Origin: an uncultured Alphaproteobacteria bacterium
GTDB taxonomy: Bacteria > Pseudomonadota > Alphaproteobacteria > HIMB59 > GCA-002718135
NCBI GenBank assembly: GCA_902587565.1
Contig: CACILT010000001.1
Location: 1 to 64,000 of the forward strand
DNA: 64,000 nucleotides
Direction: 5' to 3'
A program made the position numbers and the translations under genes. The notes beneath the pieces were generated by a model that was not told where the DNA came from, ran no database searches, and saw only the letters and a program-made list of their open reading frames with translations. Below, piece after piece: positions 7,856 to 14,259 of the stretch (within the stretch, counting starts at the first letter, position 1; every line of letters starts with the position of its first letter).

Positions 7856-10399
7856 TTAAAGAAGTTTTTCTAAAACTGCAAAGGGAGAATTAGGATCTCT
7901 TTTAATATTATTTAATTTATTTTTCTTATTTGTTTTTTTATTTTTTTTGATCGTTTTTTTTGTATTTTTTTTATTATTAGAAAGGAAAAATAATTTTTTT
8001 GTATCAGCAATTGTTAGATTTTCGTAACCACAAAATTTCATAATATCTCTCAATTGATCACTATTACACCCAATTGGGTTCATTAATTCTGACGATTCTA
8101 AGAAAGGCCCTTTCTTTATTTTTTGTCTAGCAAGATAAAAAATTTTTTCAAATATATCTATTCTAAACATAAAATTTTTAATATTTACATAACCAATTGA
8201 TTGCCAGTAACTATCAGGCATTCTAATATTTGATGTGAAAGATACTCTTCCATTTAGTGGAAGAGGTAAAAATTCATCTATTTCTTTTTGATAGAATACT
8301 TTCCATAAAATTGCACAAAACTCTATTGGTTTTTTCTTTAATAAATTTGGTATATAAAAATATTTAGCTCCTATTCTAATTCCTAATTTGGAAATTTGAA
8401 GTTTGCTCTCTTGTGAAATATTCTTTAGAGAATTTCTAAACTTTTCAATAGGAAAATTTCCAAAATTTTCGAAACAGTTGAAAATAATAGCTCTAATTTC
8501 GGTATTAATATTGTCATCAATATTTTTACTGAGCGGATAAAGTGTTTCATTTATTTCACCGTCTAACCATTTTTGAAGCTTAGCTGATATCAATAATTTA
8601 TTTTCAGAAGATAAGTACTCAGAATTCAAAGCATCTGCAATCGGTCTATATATAGATTTACCTTTTTTCAGTTTTCCAACAGCTTCATCTCCCCAAAAAA
8701 TAAAAGTTTCATCCTTTATTTTGGACTTACTAATCTCTCCAAAATTAATCGAATCTAATGGAGCTTTTAAAAAATTTTCTACTTTTTCATCAATCATAAT
8801 TCTTACTGATTTATTAACATTAGTAATAGAAAAAAGAGATTGTGAAAATAATTTTTTCTCTTTAATCATATCAAATCCTACTATTATGCCAAATTTAGTA
8901 TTTTCTAAAAATATTTCATTTTTATTTTTTTTAAGAATTGCTTCAATATTTTGAAATTTCGTTTGTTCGATAAAAAATTTAGAAGAATGGTCAATGAATT
9001 TTTTTGTCAAACTTTCATGAAGTTGATCTGATAATTCATTTTCTATTTCTTGAGTTTTTTCTTTCCAATAGTGAGAATTTTTTAACCATGCATGATTATT
9101 TGAGATATATGTCCATGTTCTAATTTGAGAAATTTTAATAGAAAGTTCCGGTATACCTCCAGAATAATTGTTAAGTCTTCTAACTTTTTTACTTATCCAT
9201 TCTTCAGGAAAATAATAATTATTTTTAATTAAAATAAGAAAAATACTTTTTAAAAGTAATAAATAATTATCATTAGATAGTTTTTCAAAATCTGGAATTT
9301 GACATATATCCCATAATAATTCGAGATTTTTACGTGAGCTAAGTTTTTTTTTTATTTCATTATCATCAATTAGATTTCGAAAATTTAGTTCATCTAAAGC
9401 ATTTTTTTTATGAATAAAAAAATTATGAATTGGATATTTTTTTAATGAAGATAGAAGTAATTCTATTGAGTTAAAATTTAAATTGCTATTTCTCCAATAA
9501 ATTTTTTGTATACTATCAAAATTATGATTTTCTATTTGTTGTATTATTAGAGGATCTAAATTACCTGCTTCTTTAGTATAACTAAATGTTCCATCTTGTT
9601 TATACCTACCTGCTCTTCCAGCTATTTGCGCAATTTCATTAGGGGCAAGACTTCGATTGTATCTTCCATCAAATTTTTCAAGAGATGAAAAATTAACATG
9701 ATTAATATTTAGATTTAAACCCATGCCAATAGCATCTGTAGCTACAAGATAATCAACATTTTTATTTTCGTATACTTCAACTTGAGCGTTTCTTGTTCTT
9801 GGACTAAGTGATCCTAAAACTACAGCAGTGCCCCCTTTATGCGTTCGAATATTATCGGCAATTTCATAGACTTTATTAATATTAAATGCAATTATCGCAG
9901 ATCTTGGCTCAAGTTTAGAAAAATTTTGTTTTCTTAAAAACGTAAGCTGAGAAAATCGTTTCTTTTTCTCTACTACAATATTTGGATAGATTTTTTTAAG
10001 CAAGTTTTCTATATTTAAAGATCCTAAAAAAATAGTTTGAAAGGCCCCCCTAAAGTTTAGAATTCTGTCTGTAAAAATATGTCCTCTTTCATAATCTGCT
10101 GCTAATTGAATTTCATCTATAATTATACAATCTACGCTGATGTTTTTAGGCATTGATTCAACAGTGCAAAAATAATATTTTGCTTCTTTAGGAAGAATTT
10201 TTTCTTCACCTGTTATTAATGCTACATTATTTAGACCAATTTTTTTTACAGCTTTATCATAATTTTCTCTAGCAAGTAATCTTAATGGGAAACCGAAAAT
10301 GCCTGACGAAAAAGAAAATAACTTCTCAAACGCTAAATAAGTTTTTCCTGTGTTAGTAGGCCCAAGTATAGCTAGCAAATTATCATCTTCATTATACAT
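7856..10399 (-). CDS. SUV3-like superfamily 2 RNA helicase
   Basis: An ATP-dependent helicase related to mitochondrial SUV3, the RNA degradosome helicase. Domain 1 has Walker A GPTNTGKTYLAF (residues 13-24) and the DExx variant IIDEIQLAADYERG. Domain 2 has ATDAIGMGLNLNI and motif VI IAGRAGRYKQDG. The remaining C-terminal half is helicase-associated and ends in a lysine-rich tail (KKTIKKNKKTNKKNK) that may bind nucleic acid. Its 847 residues are somewhat shorter than many alphaproteobacterial homologues. It lies four bases after acnA on the same strand. The S4-domain RNA-binding gene that often follows this helicase in the class is absent here. Confidence 0.88.
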   Translation of the reverse strand: MYNEDDNLLAILGPTNTGKTYLAFEKLFSFSSGIFGFPLRLLARENYDKAVKKIGLNNVALITGEEKILPKEAKYYFCTVESMPKNISVDCIIIDEIQLAADYERGHIFTDRILNFRGAFQTIFLGSLNIENLLKKIYPNIVVEKKKRFSQLTFLRKQNFSKLEPRSAIIAFNINKVYEIADNIRTHKGGTAVVLGSLSPRTRNAQVEVYENKNVDYLVATDAIGMGLNLNINHVNFSSLEKFDGRYNRSLAPNEIAQIAGRAGRYKQDGTFSYTKEAGNLDPLIIQQIENHNFDSIQKIYWRNSNLNFNSIELLLSSLKKYPIHNFFIHKKNALDELNFRNLIDDNEIKKKLSSRKNLELLWDICQIPDFEKLSNDNYLLLLKSIFLILIKNNYYFPEEWISKKVRRLNNYSGGIPELSIKISQIRTWTYISNNHAWLKNSHYWKEKTQEIENELSDQLHESLTKKFIDHSSKFFIEQTKFQNIEAILKKNKNEIFLENTKFGIIVGFDMIKEKKLFSQSLFSITNVNKSVRIMIDEKVENFLKAPLDSINFGEISKSKIKDETFIFWGDEAVGKLKKGKSIYRPIADALNSEYLSSENKLLISAKLQKWLDGEINETLYPLSKNIDDNINTEIRAIIFNCFENFGNFPIEKFRNSLKNISQESKLQISKLGIRIGAKYFYIPNLLKKKPIEFCAILWKVFYQKEIDEFLPLPLNGRVSFTSNIRMPDSYWQSIGYVNIKNFMFRIDIFEKIFYLARQKIKKGPFLESSELMNPIGCNSDQLRDIMKFCGYENLTIADTKKLFFLSNNKKNTKKTIKKNKKTNKKNKLNNIKRDPNSPFAVLEKLL

Positions 10400-10403
10400 G
10401 TAA

Positions 10404-13046
10404 TTATGCTGCTTCTGATATTATTTCATTTAAAACGTAATTTAAAATTCCTCCAGCTTTATAATATTGAAGTTCTTTATTAGTATCTATTCTGCACTTT
10501 AGTTTAATTTTTTTAATTTGTTTTGAATTAATTTGACAATTTAGAATTATGCTTGGTTCAAGAATTGATAATCCTGATATAGAAATTTTTTCATCACCTT
10601 TAATGCTAAGGTTCGCTATGTTATTGTTTTCTGTAAACTCAAGGGGCAAAACACCCATTCCAATCAAATTTGATCTATGAATTCTTTCGAAACTCTCTGC
10701 AATTACAGCTCTAACACCTAAGAGTCTTGTACCTTTTGCAGCCCAATCTCTAGATGATCCTGTGCCATATTCTTTTCCAGCTATAATAACAGTATCAATA
10801 TCACTATTTATATACTCCTGAGCAGCTTCATATATTGACATTTGTTTATCTGATACAAAAGATTTGGTGTATCCTCCTTCTACATTTTCTAAAATCTGAT
10901 TTTTTATTCTTATATTTGCAAATGTGCCCCTCATCATAATTTCATGATTTCCTCGTCTTGATCCATAAGAATTAAAATTCTTTAAATTTATTTGTCTGTT
11001 AGTTAGGTAAAGTCCAGCTGGACTGTCTTCTTTAATACTACCAGCAGGTGAAATATGGTCTGTAGTCACACTATCACCAAGCAGAGCAAGTATCCTAGCG
11101 TCCTTTATGTCCTTTAATTTAAATTTGTTTTGTGTATCAAAAAAAGGAGGGTGTTTTATGTATGTACTAGTATCGTTCCAATCATATGTCGTATCTTCAG
11201 AATTATTAATCGATTTCCAATTATTATCTCCTTTGTAAATTTCCTTATATCTATCTTTAAACATTTCAGGAGTTAGACATAAACTTAGCATATCATTGAT
11301 TTCTTTATTTGTAGGCCACAGATCCTTAAGGAATATTTCTTTTCCTAATTTAGATTTAGCAATACAATCAGTAACTAAATTAACATTAATATTGCCTGCA
11401 ATAGCGTAAGCTACAACAAGAGGTGGGGAAGCTAAAAAATTTGCCTTTACATCTTGGTGAACTCTACCTTCAAAGTTTCTGTTTCCAGACAAAACTGAAC
11501 AGACAGTTAGGTCATTTAATTTTATTTCATCAGATACCCATTTATCTAAAGGTCCAGAATTACCGATACATGTTGTACAACCATACCCTACAGTATTAAA
11601 ACCTAACATATCAAGATAATTTGTTAAACCCGCTTTATCCAAGTAATCACTAACTACCTTGCTTCCAGGCGCTAAACTAGTTTTGACCCAGGGTTTAATT
11701 TCTAAACCCAAATCAATTGCCTTTTTTGCAACAAGGCCAGCTGCGATCATTACGTTAGGATTAGAGGTATTTGTACAACTAGTAATAGCTGCAATTACAA
11801 TATCACCAGTATCTAATTTATTTAAATCTATTTTAGATTTATTATCCATTTTACTAAATTCTTTAGGCACATCTGTTAATAGAATTTTATCTTGTGGTCT
11901 TTTAGGCCCAGCAATAGATGCTTCAATTTCACTTAAATCTAATTTTATTTTATCTGAAAATTGTGGGTCATAATTTTCGTCAGCCCATAATGTTTGTTTT
12001 TTTGTATAGTTTTCAACAATGTTTAGATGTTCTTTATCTTTACCGGTCAATTCAAGATAATTTATGGTTTCTTGGTCAGTGGGAAAAAATCCACAAGTTG
12101 CTCCATACTCTGGAGCCATATTAGATATCGTTGCCCTGTCTGCTAAAGATAAAGATTGTAGACCATTTCCATAAAACTCTACAAACTTTCCAACGACTCC
12201 TTTATCTCTTAAAATTTTAGTTATTGATAAAACTAAATCTGTTGCTGTTATTCCTTCCTTTAATGAACCAATAAGCTCAAATCCAATTACATCTGGAATA
12301 TTCATTGAAATTGCCTGTCCTAACATAGCAGCTTCAGCTTCTATTCCTCCTACTCCCCACCCAAGAACAGATAAGGCGTTAACCATAGTTGTGTGACTAT
12401 CAGTTCCTACTACAGAGTCGGGAAATAAATAATTTACATTATCAATTTTTTTTAACCATATTGTTTTTGCGATGTTTTCTAAGTTTACTTGATGACAAAT
12501 TCCTGCACCTGGTGGTACTAAATAAAAGTTATCAAATGAACTTTGTCCCCATTTTAGGAATTCGTACCTCTCTTTATTTCTATCGAATTCTTTTTTAACG
12601 TTTTCTTTTAGAGAATTATTGTCTTTATAACTATCAACCATGACGGAATGATCAATTACTAAATCAACCCTAGAAATTGGATTAATTTTTTTTGGCTCAA
12701 TTCCTTTAGATTTTAATGCATTTCTCATTGCTGCCAAATCTGCAACTGCAGGAACACCTGTAAAATCCTGCATAAGTACTCGAGTAGGGAAAAAAGCTAT
12801 CTCGATTGTTTTATTTTTAGTATTGAATTTATTTATTGAATTAAATACTTTGATGATCATATCTTTATCAATATTTTCTCCATCCTCATTTCTAAGTAAG
12901 TTTTCTAATATAACTTTAATTGAGATTGGTATTTTGTTTAGATCAACATCAAAGTATTTGGCTACTTTATTCAAATCAAAATATTTAAAATTTTGATTAT
13001 TTATTTCAATAATTTGTTCTGATTTAAAAGAATTTCTTTTTTTCAT
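10404..13046 (-). CDS. acnA: Aconitate hydratase A
   Basis: It isomerises citrate to isocitrate in the TCA cycle using a 4Fe-4S cluster. Its 880 residues match the AcnA/IRP family. Cluster cysteines lie in ITSCTNTSNPNVMIAAG and GYGCTTCIGNSGPL. The substrate-binding segments VPAVADLAAMRNA, DHSVMVDSY, VGTDSHTTMVNAL and EYGTGSSRDWAAKG are intact, so it should be active. It is the first gene of the leftward run. About 300 bases separate its start from the poly-lysine unit. The iron-regulatory RNA-binding role of some homologues cannot be judged. Confidence 0.97.
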   Translation of the reverse strand: MKKRNSFKSEQIIEINNQNFKYFDLNKVAKYFDVDLNKIPISIKVILENLLRNEDGENIDKDMIIKVFNSINKFNTKNKTIEIAFFPTRVLMQDFTGVPAVADLAAMRNALKSKGIEPKKINPISRVDLVIDHSVMVDSYKDNNSLKENVKKEFDRNKERYEFLKWGQSSFDNFYLVPPGAGICHQVNLENIAKTIWLKKIDNVNYLFPDSVVGTDSHTTMVNALSVLGWGVGGIEAEAAMLGQAISMNIPDVIGFELIGSLKEGITATDLVLSITKILRDKGVVGKFVEFYGNGLQSLSLADRATISNMAPEYGATCGFFPTDQETINYLELTGKDKEHLNIVENYTKKQTLWADENYDPQFSDKIKLDLSEIEASIAGPKRPQDKILLTDVPKEFSKMDNKSKIDLNKLDTGDIVIAAITSCTNTSNPNVMIAAGLVAKKAIDLGLEIKPWVKTSLAPGSKVVSDYLDKAGLTNYLDMLGFNTVGYGCTTCIGNSGPLDKWVSDEIKLNDLTVCSVLSGNRNFEGRVHQDVKANFLASPPLVVAYAIAGNINVNLVTDCIAKSKLGKEIFLKDLWPTNKEINDMLSLCLTPEMFKDRYKEIYKGDNNWKSINNSEDTTYDWNDTSTYIKHPPFFDTQNKFKLKDIKDARILALLGDSVTTDHISPAGSIKEDSPAGLYLTNRQINLKNFNSYGSRRGNHEIMMRGTFANIRIKNQILENVEGGYTKSFVSDKQMSIYEAAQEYINSDIDTVIIAGKEYGTGSSRDWAAKGTRLLGVRAVIAESFERIHRSNLIGMGVLPLEFTENNNIANLSIKGDEKISISGLSILEPSIILNCQINSKQIKKIKLKCRIDTNKELQYYKAGGILNYVLNEIISEAA

Positions 13047-13235: not shown

Positions 13236-13254
13236 TTGACTTTAAGCGTAAGTT

Positions 13255-13320
13255 TTGGGAATAAATGCTTAGCCTTTTATAATTATCATCTTGATGATAA
13301 TAATGGAGGGGGGTTCCTCC
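13255..13320 (+). promoter_or_regulatory. Promoter and two inverted repeats in the leader of the poly-lysine gene
   Basis: A good sigma-70 promoter is visible: TTGGGA (13255-13260), a 17-base spacer and TATAAT (13278-13283). A perfect 9-base inverted repeat, ATTATCATC-TT-GATGATAAT (13282-13301), starts inside the -10 box and spans the expected start site, so it looks more like an operator than an RNA hairpin. It is followed by GGAGG (13305-13309) facing CCTCC (13316-13320) across a 6-base loop, a GC island unlike its surroundings. An alternative -35 TTGACT lies at 13236. The real ribosome-binding site, AAGGAG, is further down at about 13336. Confidence 0.55.
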
Positions 13321-13347
13321 GGGGTAACAAAATACAAGGAGTATTTT

Positions 13348-13524
13348 ATGGCTAAGAAGAAAAAGAAAGCTGCTCCAAAGAAGAAGAAGAAAGCAGCTAC
13401 TAAGAAAAAGAAAAAAGCAGCTCCTAAAAAGAAAAAGAAAAAAGCTGCTCCTAAGAAAAAGAAAAAAGCAGCTCCTAAAAAGAAAAAGAAAAAAGCTGCT
13501 AAAAAGAAGAAGAAGAGAAGATAG
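13348..13524 (+). CDS. 58-residue lysine-rich KKKKK-AAP repeat protein (histone H1-tail-like)
   Basis: The protein is seven runs of five or six lysines separated by AAP, AAT or AA, ending in RR; 37 of 58 residues are lysine. The track start (13291) lies in the leader; the ATG at 13348 follows a strong Shine-Dalgarno (AAGGAG, 6-base spacing), so this start is preferred. No fold or signal peptide is expected. Such composition resembles the C-terminal tails of histone H1 and bacterial H1-like DNA-binding proteins, so nucleoid or RNA binding is an inference. It has its own promoter and terminators, so it is a single-gene unit, and the four-base-cycle A/G codon use gives an internal 51-base perfect repeat. 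A low-complexity false ORF is unlikely given the promoter, RBS and terminators. Confidence 0.8.
   Translation: MAKKKKKAAPKKKKKAATKKKKKAAPKKKKKKAAPKKKKKAAPKKKKKKAAKKKKKRR
13402..13500 (+). repeat. 51-base tandem repeat inside the poly-lysine gene
   Basis: Bases 13402-13452 recur without mismatch at 13453-13500 (48 of the 51 bases; the final CCT is missing). The period equals 17 codons, so copy changes keep the frame. Identity at synonymous positions suggests recent duplication or gene conversion. Confidence 0.85.
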
Positions 13525-13543
13525 TAATACTTCGATTTTTCAG

Positions 13544-13566
13544 GAAAACTTTAATATAAAGTTTTC
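13544..13566 (+). terminator. First hairpin downstream of the poly-lysine gene
   Basis: A perfect 10-base stem, GAAAACTTTA with TAAAGTTTTC, has a 3-base loop and is followed by TTTTTCTTA. It is AT-rich and so only moderately stable. It could be a weak terminator or a 3'-end stabiliser. A third, purely A/T hairpin (TTATCTTTTT-C-AAAAAGATAA, 13573-13593) follows directly. Confidence 0.55.
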
Positions 13567-13591
13567 TTTTTCTTATCTTTTTCAAAAAGAT

Positions 13592-13617
13592 AAAACGGGG
13601 TTCTGCCCCGTTTTTTT
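13592..13617 (+). terminator. Strong rho-independent terminator of the poly-lysine unit
   Basis: The stem AAAACGGGG / CCCCGTTTT with loop TTCTG runs into eight T residues. This is one of the clearest terminators in the window. It isolates the poly-lysine gene from the ccm operon that begins 37 bases later. Confidence 0.9.
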
Positions 13618-13653: not shown

Positions 13654-14259
13654 ATGATACTCGTTAAAGATTTATCAATAGAAAGATCTAATAAAAAAAT
13701 ATTTGAGAATGTTAATCTATCTCTTGGATCTGGAAAAATAATATTATTAAAAGGGAAAAATGGTTCTGGAAAAACTACATTATTAAAAGCATTGCTTAAC
13801 CTAATAGAACCCTCCTCTGGTGCAATATATTGGAAAGGAAAATTATTAAAAAAAAATTTATATAATTTTTTTAATCATGTCACATACATTGCTGACAGAA
13901 CATCAAGTTTAAGTAAATTATCAGTTCAAGAAAATATTAAAATTTGGAAAAAAATCTTTTTATCGAATATTAGTAATTCTCAAGTTGATAATATTTTAAA
14001 AACTTTAAAATTAGATATTTATTTAGATCAAAAAGTTAATTCATTATCATTTGGAGAAACAAAAAAATTGGAGTTTTTACGATTAATTATAGAAAACAAA
14101 AAAATTTGGATTTTAGACGAACCTTTGTCCAATTTAGATAATGAATCAATTGATGTTATTGCACAAACTTTTGAAGATCATCGCGCCAAGGAAGGTTCAA
14201 TAATTTTTAGCTCGCATCAAGAATCAGAGATAAATGTGTCAGAGGAAATTGTACTATAA
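13654..14259 (+). CDS. ccmA: Heme exporter ATP-binding protein CcmA
   Basis: The ATPase subunit of the CcmAB transporter that releases heme-loaded CcmE from CcmC during cytochrome c maturation. The 201-residue ABC domain shows Walker A KGKNGSGKTTLLKAL near residue 35, a signature reduced to SLSFGETKKLEF, Walker B IWILDEPLSNLD, and the switch histidine in SSHQ. The family is usually just over 200 residues. It is the first gene of ccmABCDEFGH, six bases ahead of ccmB. No promoter other than AT-rich sequence after the terminator is obvious. Confidence 0.93.
   Translation: MILVKDLSIERSNKKIFENVNLSLGSGKIILLKGKNGSGKTTLLKALLNLIEPSSGAIYWKGKLLKKNLYNFFNHVTYIADRTSSLSKLSVQENIKIWKKIFLSNISNSQVDNILKTLKLDIYLDQKVNSLSFGETKKLEFLRLIIENKKIWILDEPLSNLDNESIDVIAQTFEDHRAKEGSIIFSSHQESEINVSEEIVL

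Follow-up and report, generated by a model that had tools for sequence, protein, structure and literature searches.

Hc2 and BpH1, together with the tail of AlgP, are the closest described counterparts of the protein reported here. Hc2 and BpH1 resemble it in composition, DNA binding has been reported for them and their repeat number varies (PMC2848022), and the same is true of AlgP with respect to the composition of its tail, reported DNA binding and variable repeat number (PMC9239181).

We analysed a stretch of 64,000 nucleotides (the window) from an uncultured alphaproteobacterium of the HIMB59 lineage, whose source assembly comprises 1.2 Mb in 36 contigs, is 70% complete and has a GC content of 29% on contig C1. 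The window contains a gene for a protein made largely of lysine. A literature search that covered few subscription journals turned up no earlier account of the poly-lysine protein of the HIMB59/AEGEAN-169 group.

Results

The product of the poly-lysine gene is MAKKKKKAAPKKKKKAATKKKKKAAPKKKKKKAAPKKKKKAAPKKKKKKAAKKKKKRR, whose 58 residues include 37 Lys, 13 Ala, 4 Pro, 2 Arg and 1 Thr; translation of the open reading frame (ORF) bore out the length, lysine count and AAP spacers given in a first-pass annotation of the window. The promoter-like boxes, inverted repeat, GGAGG/CCTCC element, ribosome site, ORF and 3' hairpins of that annotation were all found where it had placed them, and the self-contained gene that it had described is genuine and conserved, with its own leader, 3' hairpins and terminator (Table 1). 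Folding of the whole transcript unit gave -84.6 kcal/mol, against -63.5 +/- 5.3 for shuffled sequences (z = -4.0). The upstream neighbour is a divergent aconitase-like gene on the minus strand (10404-13046); this name, like ccmA-like and ccm-like, was assigned by reading translations. Also on the minus strand and close to the poly-lysine gene is a helicase-like protein with a Lys/Asn-rich C-terminal tail (7856-10399), and in the sister family described below the poly-lysine gene is immediately preceded by what appears to be the start of the same helicase-like gene.

Table 1 Features of the poly-lysine locus in window coordinates.
Feature	Position	Strand	Conservation and remarks
Promoter-region block TTGACTTTANNCGTAAGTTTTGGGA..., with TTGACT at 13236-13241 as the likely -35	13236-13265	+	Nearly identical in 29/29 family 1 leaders outside positions 9-11
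AGCCTTTTAT block, likely around the transcription start	13271-13281	+	AGCCTTT invariant, as is the AT that follows the fourth T; fourth T nearly so
5' RNA hairpin, ATTATCATC-TT-GATGATAAT	13282-13301	+	6-10 bp stem in 29/29 family 1 leaders
GC-rich candidate hairpin, GGAGG-NNGGTT-CCTCC	13305-13320	+	Nearly invariant in 29 family 1 leaders; unique in each genome
Shine-Dalgarno sequence AAGGAG	13336-13341	+	Invariant among family 1 leaders
Poly-lysine/AAP protein gene, 58 aa	13348-13524	+	46 intact orthologues; K/A/P/R composition retained; AAG-rich, short A-runs
3' hairpin 1, AGGAAAACTTTA-ATA-TAAAGTTTTCTT	13542-13568	+	Covaries in family 1
U-rich element TTTTCTTTTTCTTA	13562-13575	+	Kept in 29/29 family 1 loci
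3' hairpin 2, TTATCTTTT-TCA-AAAAGATAA	13573-13593	+	Covaries moderately (P = 0.0014); stem disrupted in a few members
Intrinsic terminator, AAAACGGGG-TTC-TGCCCCGTTTT and T-run	13592-13614	+	Conserved stem and variable loop across 29 loci
ccmA-like ABC ATPase, first gene of the ccm-like cluster	13654-14259	+	Adjoins the poly-lysine gene in all orthologous loci found

Relatives were compared at 29 distinct loci of the window's own family (family 1) and 17 of a sister family (family 2). An intact Lys-rich frame was found directly upstream of ccmA in 46/46 loci covering the site (29/29 in family 1 and 17/17 in family 2). Its products measured 53-81 aa in family 1 and 67-144 aa in family 2, giving an overall range of 53-144 aa, and K, A, P and R together made up about 98% and about 95% of their residues, respectively. 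Compensatory changes were seen in the stems of the 5' hairpin and of both 3' hairpins. Among the ccmA-like loci of named genomes (n = 80), the gene was present in 13/13 from the lineage and in 0/67 from other, mostly proteobacterial, genomes. Uncultured marine Alphaproteobacteria represented by single-cell or metagenome genomes, for example AG-891-K21 and MarineAlpha5_Bin5, have the same locus. In genome G037, which belongs to the same taxonomic order and is 99% complete on a single contig of 1,410,127 bp, the protein reaches its longest version (144 aa). Both the protein and the promoter motif were missing from phage records and viral contigs, so that no phage origin was seen. Stand-alone H1-like K/A/P ORFs of 90-165 aa were observed in other alphaproteobacteria (L054, L055, L059, L064 and L066), in 5/5 cases just downstream of a gatB-like gene, and several precede a glutathione-transferase-like gene. 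The gatB-adjacent ORF was considered as an ancestral locus and rejected, being present in 1/30 sampled gatB loci of the class and in 0/4 of those checked in this order.

When searched with up to 3 mismatches, the TTGACTTTANNCGTAAGTTTTGGGA block occurred once per genome, at the poly-lysine locus only. Its TTGACT is common to family 1 and to all family 2 leaders but one, which has TTGACA, and it sits 19 nt upstream of the -35 box of the first-pass annotation, the conserved unit starting about 20 nt earlier than had been claimed. A standard or good -10 at the right distance from TTGACT was not found, and the AGCCTTTTAT block follows TTGACT by about 35 nt. Transcription may start near 13271; in both families the first hairpin would then lie only a few bases from the 5' end of the RNA. 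The promoter previously assigned, TTGGGA (13255-13260) and TATAAT (13278-13283) with a 17 nt spacer, is present as sequence in the window, but its promoter role is doubtful, since TATAAT is not conserved (its counterparts in relatives are TATGTT, TATTAA, TATAAA or AATGAT) and its last bases lie inside the hairpin stem, while the upstream TTGACT is shared with family 2. A regulon was considered and rejected, because the promoter motif and the GGAGG motif each have a single occurrence per genome.

The 5' inverted repeat had been read as operator-like. Its loop varies from 2 to about 7 nt among family 1 leaders and its stem uses G-U pairs, which is the behaviour of an RNA hairpin rather than of a dimeric operator. 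Pairing scored 7.83 for the arms of each species' own hairpin, against 7.16 +/- 0.13 when arms were permuted between species (0/5000 permutations, relatedness uncorrected). The GGAGG/CCTCC element following it was recovered as annotated and shows a single G-U variant in family 1, in L019; being almost uniform, it gives an alignment that speaks neither for nor against pairing, and the translational control proposed for it in the first-pass annotation would be a possibility. In family 2 the position of the first hairpin is taken by a hairpin of different sequence, and an unrelated 8-12 bp hairpin then occupies the position of the GC-rich one, indicating that the leader architecture is kept while the sequence is not; the covariation test for these two family 2 hairpins was not significant (P = 0.13 and 0.18). 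Since the 5' leader folded alone did not differ significantly from shuffles (z = -1.3), it is the comparison across species that supports leader structure. The claim of a strong ribosome site agrees with the invariance of AAGGAG and its rarity in this genome, where it precedes only 3/200 contig C1 genes. GGAG within 18 nt or less of the start was seen in only 11/200 genes of the same contig, pointing to rare use of strong Shine-Dalgarno sites. Two further candidates in the leader were discarded. The second subgroup does not conserve a hairpin presenting the Shine-Dalgarno sequence in its loop (AAAATAC AAGGA GTATTTT). An upstream in-frame start yielding MEGGSSGVTKYKEYF conflicts with the TAA that immediately precedes the ATG in that subgroup and with the lack of conservation of the upstream NTG.

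Codon statistics were drawn from the 215 kb of contig C1 and from 19 kb around the ribosomal-protein genes. AAG accounts for 51% of the Lys codons of the window gene versus 14% on contig C1 (200 genes), where 0/168 genes with at least 15 Lys codons exceed 32%; the share is 17% around ribosomal-protein genes and 21% in other KKK runs. The poly-lysine gene may be highly expressed and its product abundant, but high expression alone does not account for the AAG excess, given the low share in the ribosomal-protein region. The longest A-run in the ORF is 6 nt, whereas other genes commonly have runs of 7-11. Reshuffling of the same codons reached a maximum of 6 nt in 0.03% of trials (P = 3e-4), although codon patterns inside one gene are not independent, because the repeats arose by duplication. 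The trend toward AAG and short A-runs is the same in nearly all 46 orthologues. The reading frame is thus under selection. The codon pattern fits selection for accurate translation, since in E. coli successive AAA codons let ribosomes slide whereas AAG codons do not (PMC4363877); avoidance of slippage by RNA polymerase could explain it equally well. Whether ribosome sliding or polymerase slippage is avoided, the full-length product matters; the codon evidence speaks to the importance of translation and not to the binding target of the protein.

Downstream of the ORF, the three consecutive hairpins ending in a GC terminator that had been annotated are present at 13542-13614, and both hairpins preceding the terminator covary. 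For 3' hairpin 1 in family 1, own arms scored 10.37 against 9.09 +/- 0.27 for permuted arms (P < 1/5000), and the locus contains 3 terminator-like sites against 0.2 expected. In 29/29 family 1 loci TTTTCTTTTTCTTA is perfectly complementary, over 14-15 nt, to TAAGAAAAAGAAAA(A) in the Lys-codon repeats of the ORF, a complementarity that shuffled UTRs equalled in 0-6% of trials per species, the species not being independent. The element is absent in family 2, and it overlaps local hairpins, which explain part of its conservation. An Rfam scan at gathering score detected only a tRNA within the window; at the poly-lysine locus there were only sub-threshold matches, the best being wcaG on the terminator (30.5 of 42 bits). 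In family 2 (L028-L036, L038-L041 and L043-L046) the terminator loop reads TTATAAT in 17/17 loci, even where the stem has changed, and the ATG of ccmA comes directly after the T-run. This TATAAT is possibly part of a separate ccm promoter nested in the terminator.

Discussion

The reading that we favour, with some reservation, is that the protein is a disordered, H1-tail-like polycation which coats nucleic acid and is translated from a message built for stable, accurate reading. Resembling the C-terminal H1 tail in its build, it would bind and neutralise nucleic acid by charge; the likeliest target would be nucleoid DNA, with RNA possible, and binding strength would be set by the number of repeats rather than by the exact sequence. 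Its mRNA would be a short monocistronic unit transcribed from a promoter near TTGACT, in which a 5' hairpin and a GC hairpin precede a strong ribosome site and the ORF, and further hairpins and a terminator follow. The most likely function of the hairpins would be to protect the message and tune it, and the mixing of AAG with AAA, by which the ORF has no long A-run, would hold ribosomes and polymerase in frame across 37 lysines.

A charge-driven coat acting on DNA first is favoured because the protein resembles Hc2/BpH1 and the AlgP tail in composition and repeats, and because a polyphosphate role is unlikely. The H1-tail-like role suggested in the first-pass annotation fits the composition and repeat structure, but the analogy is one of composition and no family model reaches its cut-off: against NCBIfam NF038053 (histone H1-like, Burkholderia; cut-off 80 bits) the 144-aa homologue scored 11.2 bits (E = 0.34) and the window protein gave no match. 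Pfam returned 0 families with E up to 1 for either of these two proteins, and searches of PHROGs and PDB found nothing for the protein. HU-family genes are present at one to three per genome, and a nucleoid role would thus be an additional one. If DNA is the target, the poly-lysine protein may also compact it.

A less probable alternative, which still deserves weight, is that the polycation acts on RNA or ribosomes, as a condensate or an RNA-protecting coat, and not on the nucleoid, perhaps including its own U-/A-rich message. Binding by charge gives no preference for either nucleic acid, the message has an unusual amount of structure, and the family 1 3' UTR carries the conserved 14-nt complement of the ORF repeats; that element, however, is missing in family 2 and owes part of its conservation to the overlapping hairpins. 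More speculatively, the protein might autoregulate by binding its structured leader or a duplex of the A-rich ORF and the U-rich 3' element. Were this doubtful proposal true, the protein, the codon pattern and both UTRs would form one ribonucleoprotein unit, a new bacterial feedback for a nucleic-acid condensing protein.

It is improbable that the gene encodes a Lys-rich leader peptide which, with the terminator, forms an attenuator adjusting transcription of the downstream ccm genes. The invariable position immediately upstream of ccmA, from which a terminator separates the gene, and in family 2 the ccmA ATG immediately after the T-run, would suit such a device, but the product reaches 144 aa, the AAG/AAA tuning suits smooth reading and not stalling, a link between ccm and lysine is not known, no competitor for pairing with the terminator stem is evident, and the conserved TATAAT in the family 2 terminator loop suggests a separate ccm promoter. 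Slightly less probable again is an AlgP-like organiser that binds polyphosphate in granules. The H1-like K/P/A tail of AlgP is needed for granule spacing (PMC9239181) and ppk1 is present in 8/10 genomes examined; yet the N-terminal domain of AlgP is missing from the poly-lysine protein, and G037 has the gene in its 144-aa version, at 99% completeness, but neither PPK1 nor PPK2, which on gene content makes a polyphosphate-specific role unlikely. A functionless low-complexity ORF drifting through repeat slippage, as its simple composition and variable repeat number might suggest, is scarcely credible for a frame intact in 46/46 loci of streamlined genomes, with codon selection and a near-invariant promoter and leader.

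The very small ocean genomes of this lineage keep a protein of about 60% lysine behind an almost unchanged promoter and leader. If DNA is bound by the favoured nucleic-acid coat, this protein would rank with the smallest of the H1-like kind, with implications for chromosome packing in streamlined cells. The codon pattern would offer a natural example of an AT-rich bacterium in which poly(A) sliding is selected against, and the cost of poly-lysine translation thereby becomes testable across dozens of species.

In bacterial mRNAs such as ompA, 5'-terminal stabilising hairpins occur, and the poly-lysine leader is similarly arranged, with a hairpin near the putative 5' end and, after it, a strong ribosome site. 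The Lys/Ala/Pro tails of eukaryotic linker histone H1 are of like composition, with charge-driven binding expected in both, whereas the poly-lysine protein is bacterial and consists of a tail only, without a globular domain. It shares disordered K/P/A repeats of H1-tail composition with the tails of AlgP (AlgR3, Pseudomonas aeruginosa) and PhaF. In contrast to AlgP, it is without an N-terminal helical domain, has AAP-KKKKK instead of KPAA units and no KPAA array, and occurs in a genome without polyP kinases (G037). With Hc2/HctB of Chlamydia and the Hc2-like/BpH1 proteins of Bordetella and Burkholderia it has in common a stand-alone, Lys/Ala-rich sequence of pentamer-like repeats whose number varies the length; it differs in size (53-144 aa), in its longer K-runs with AAP spacers, and in lineage and locus. 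As in the broad kind of bacterial H1-like polycations, the protein stands alone and is built of K/A/P repeats in variable number, and its composition points to disorder.
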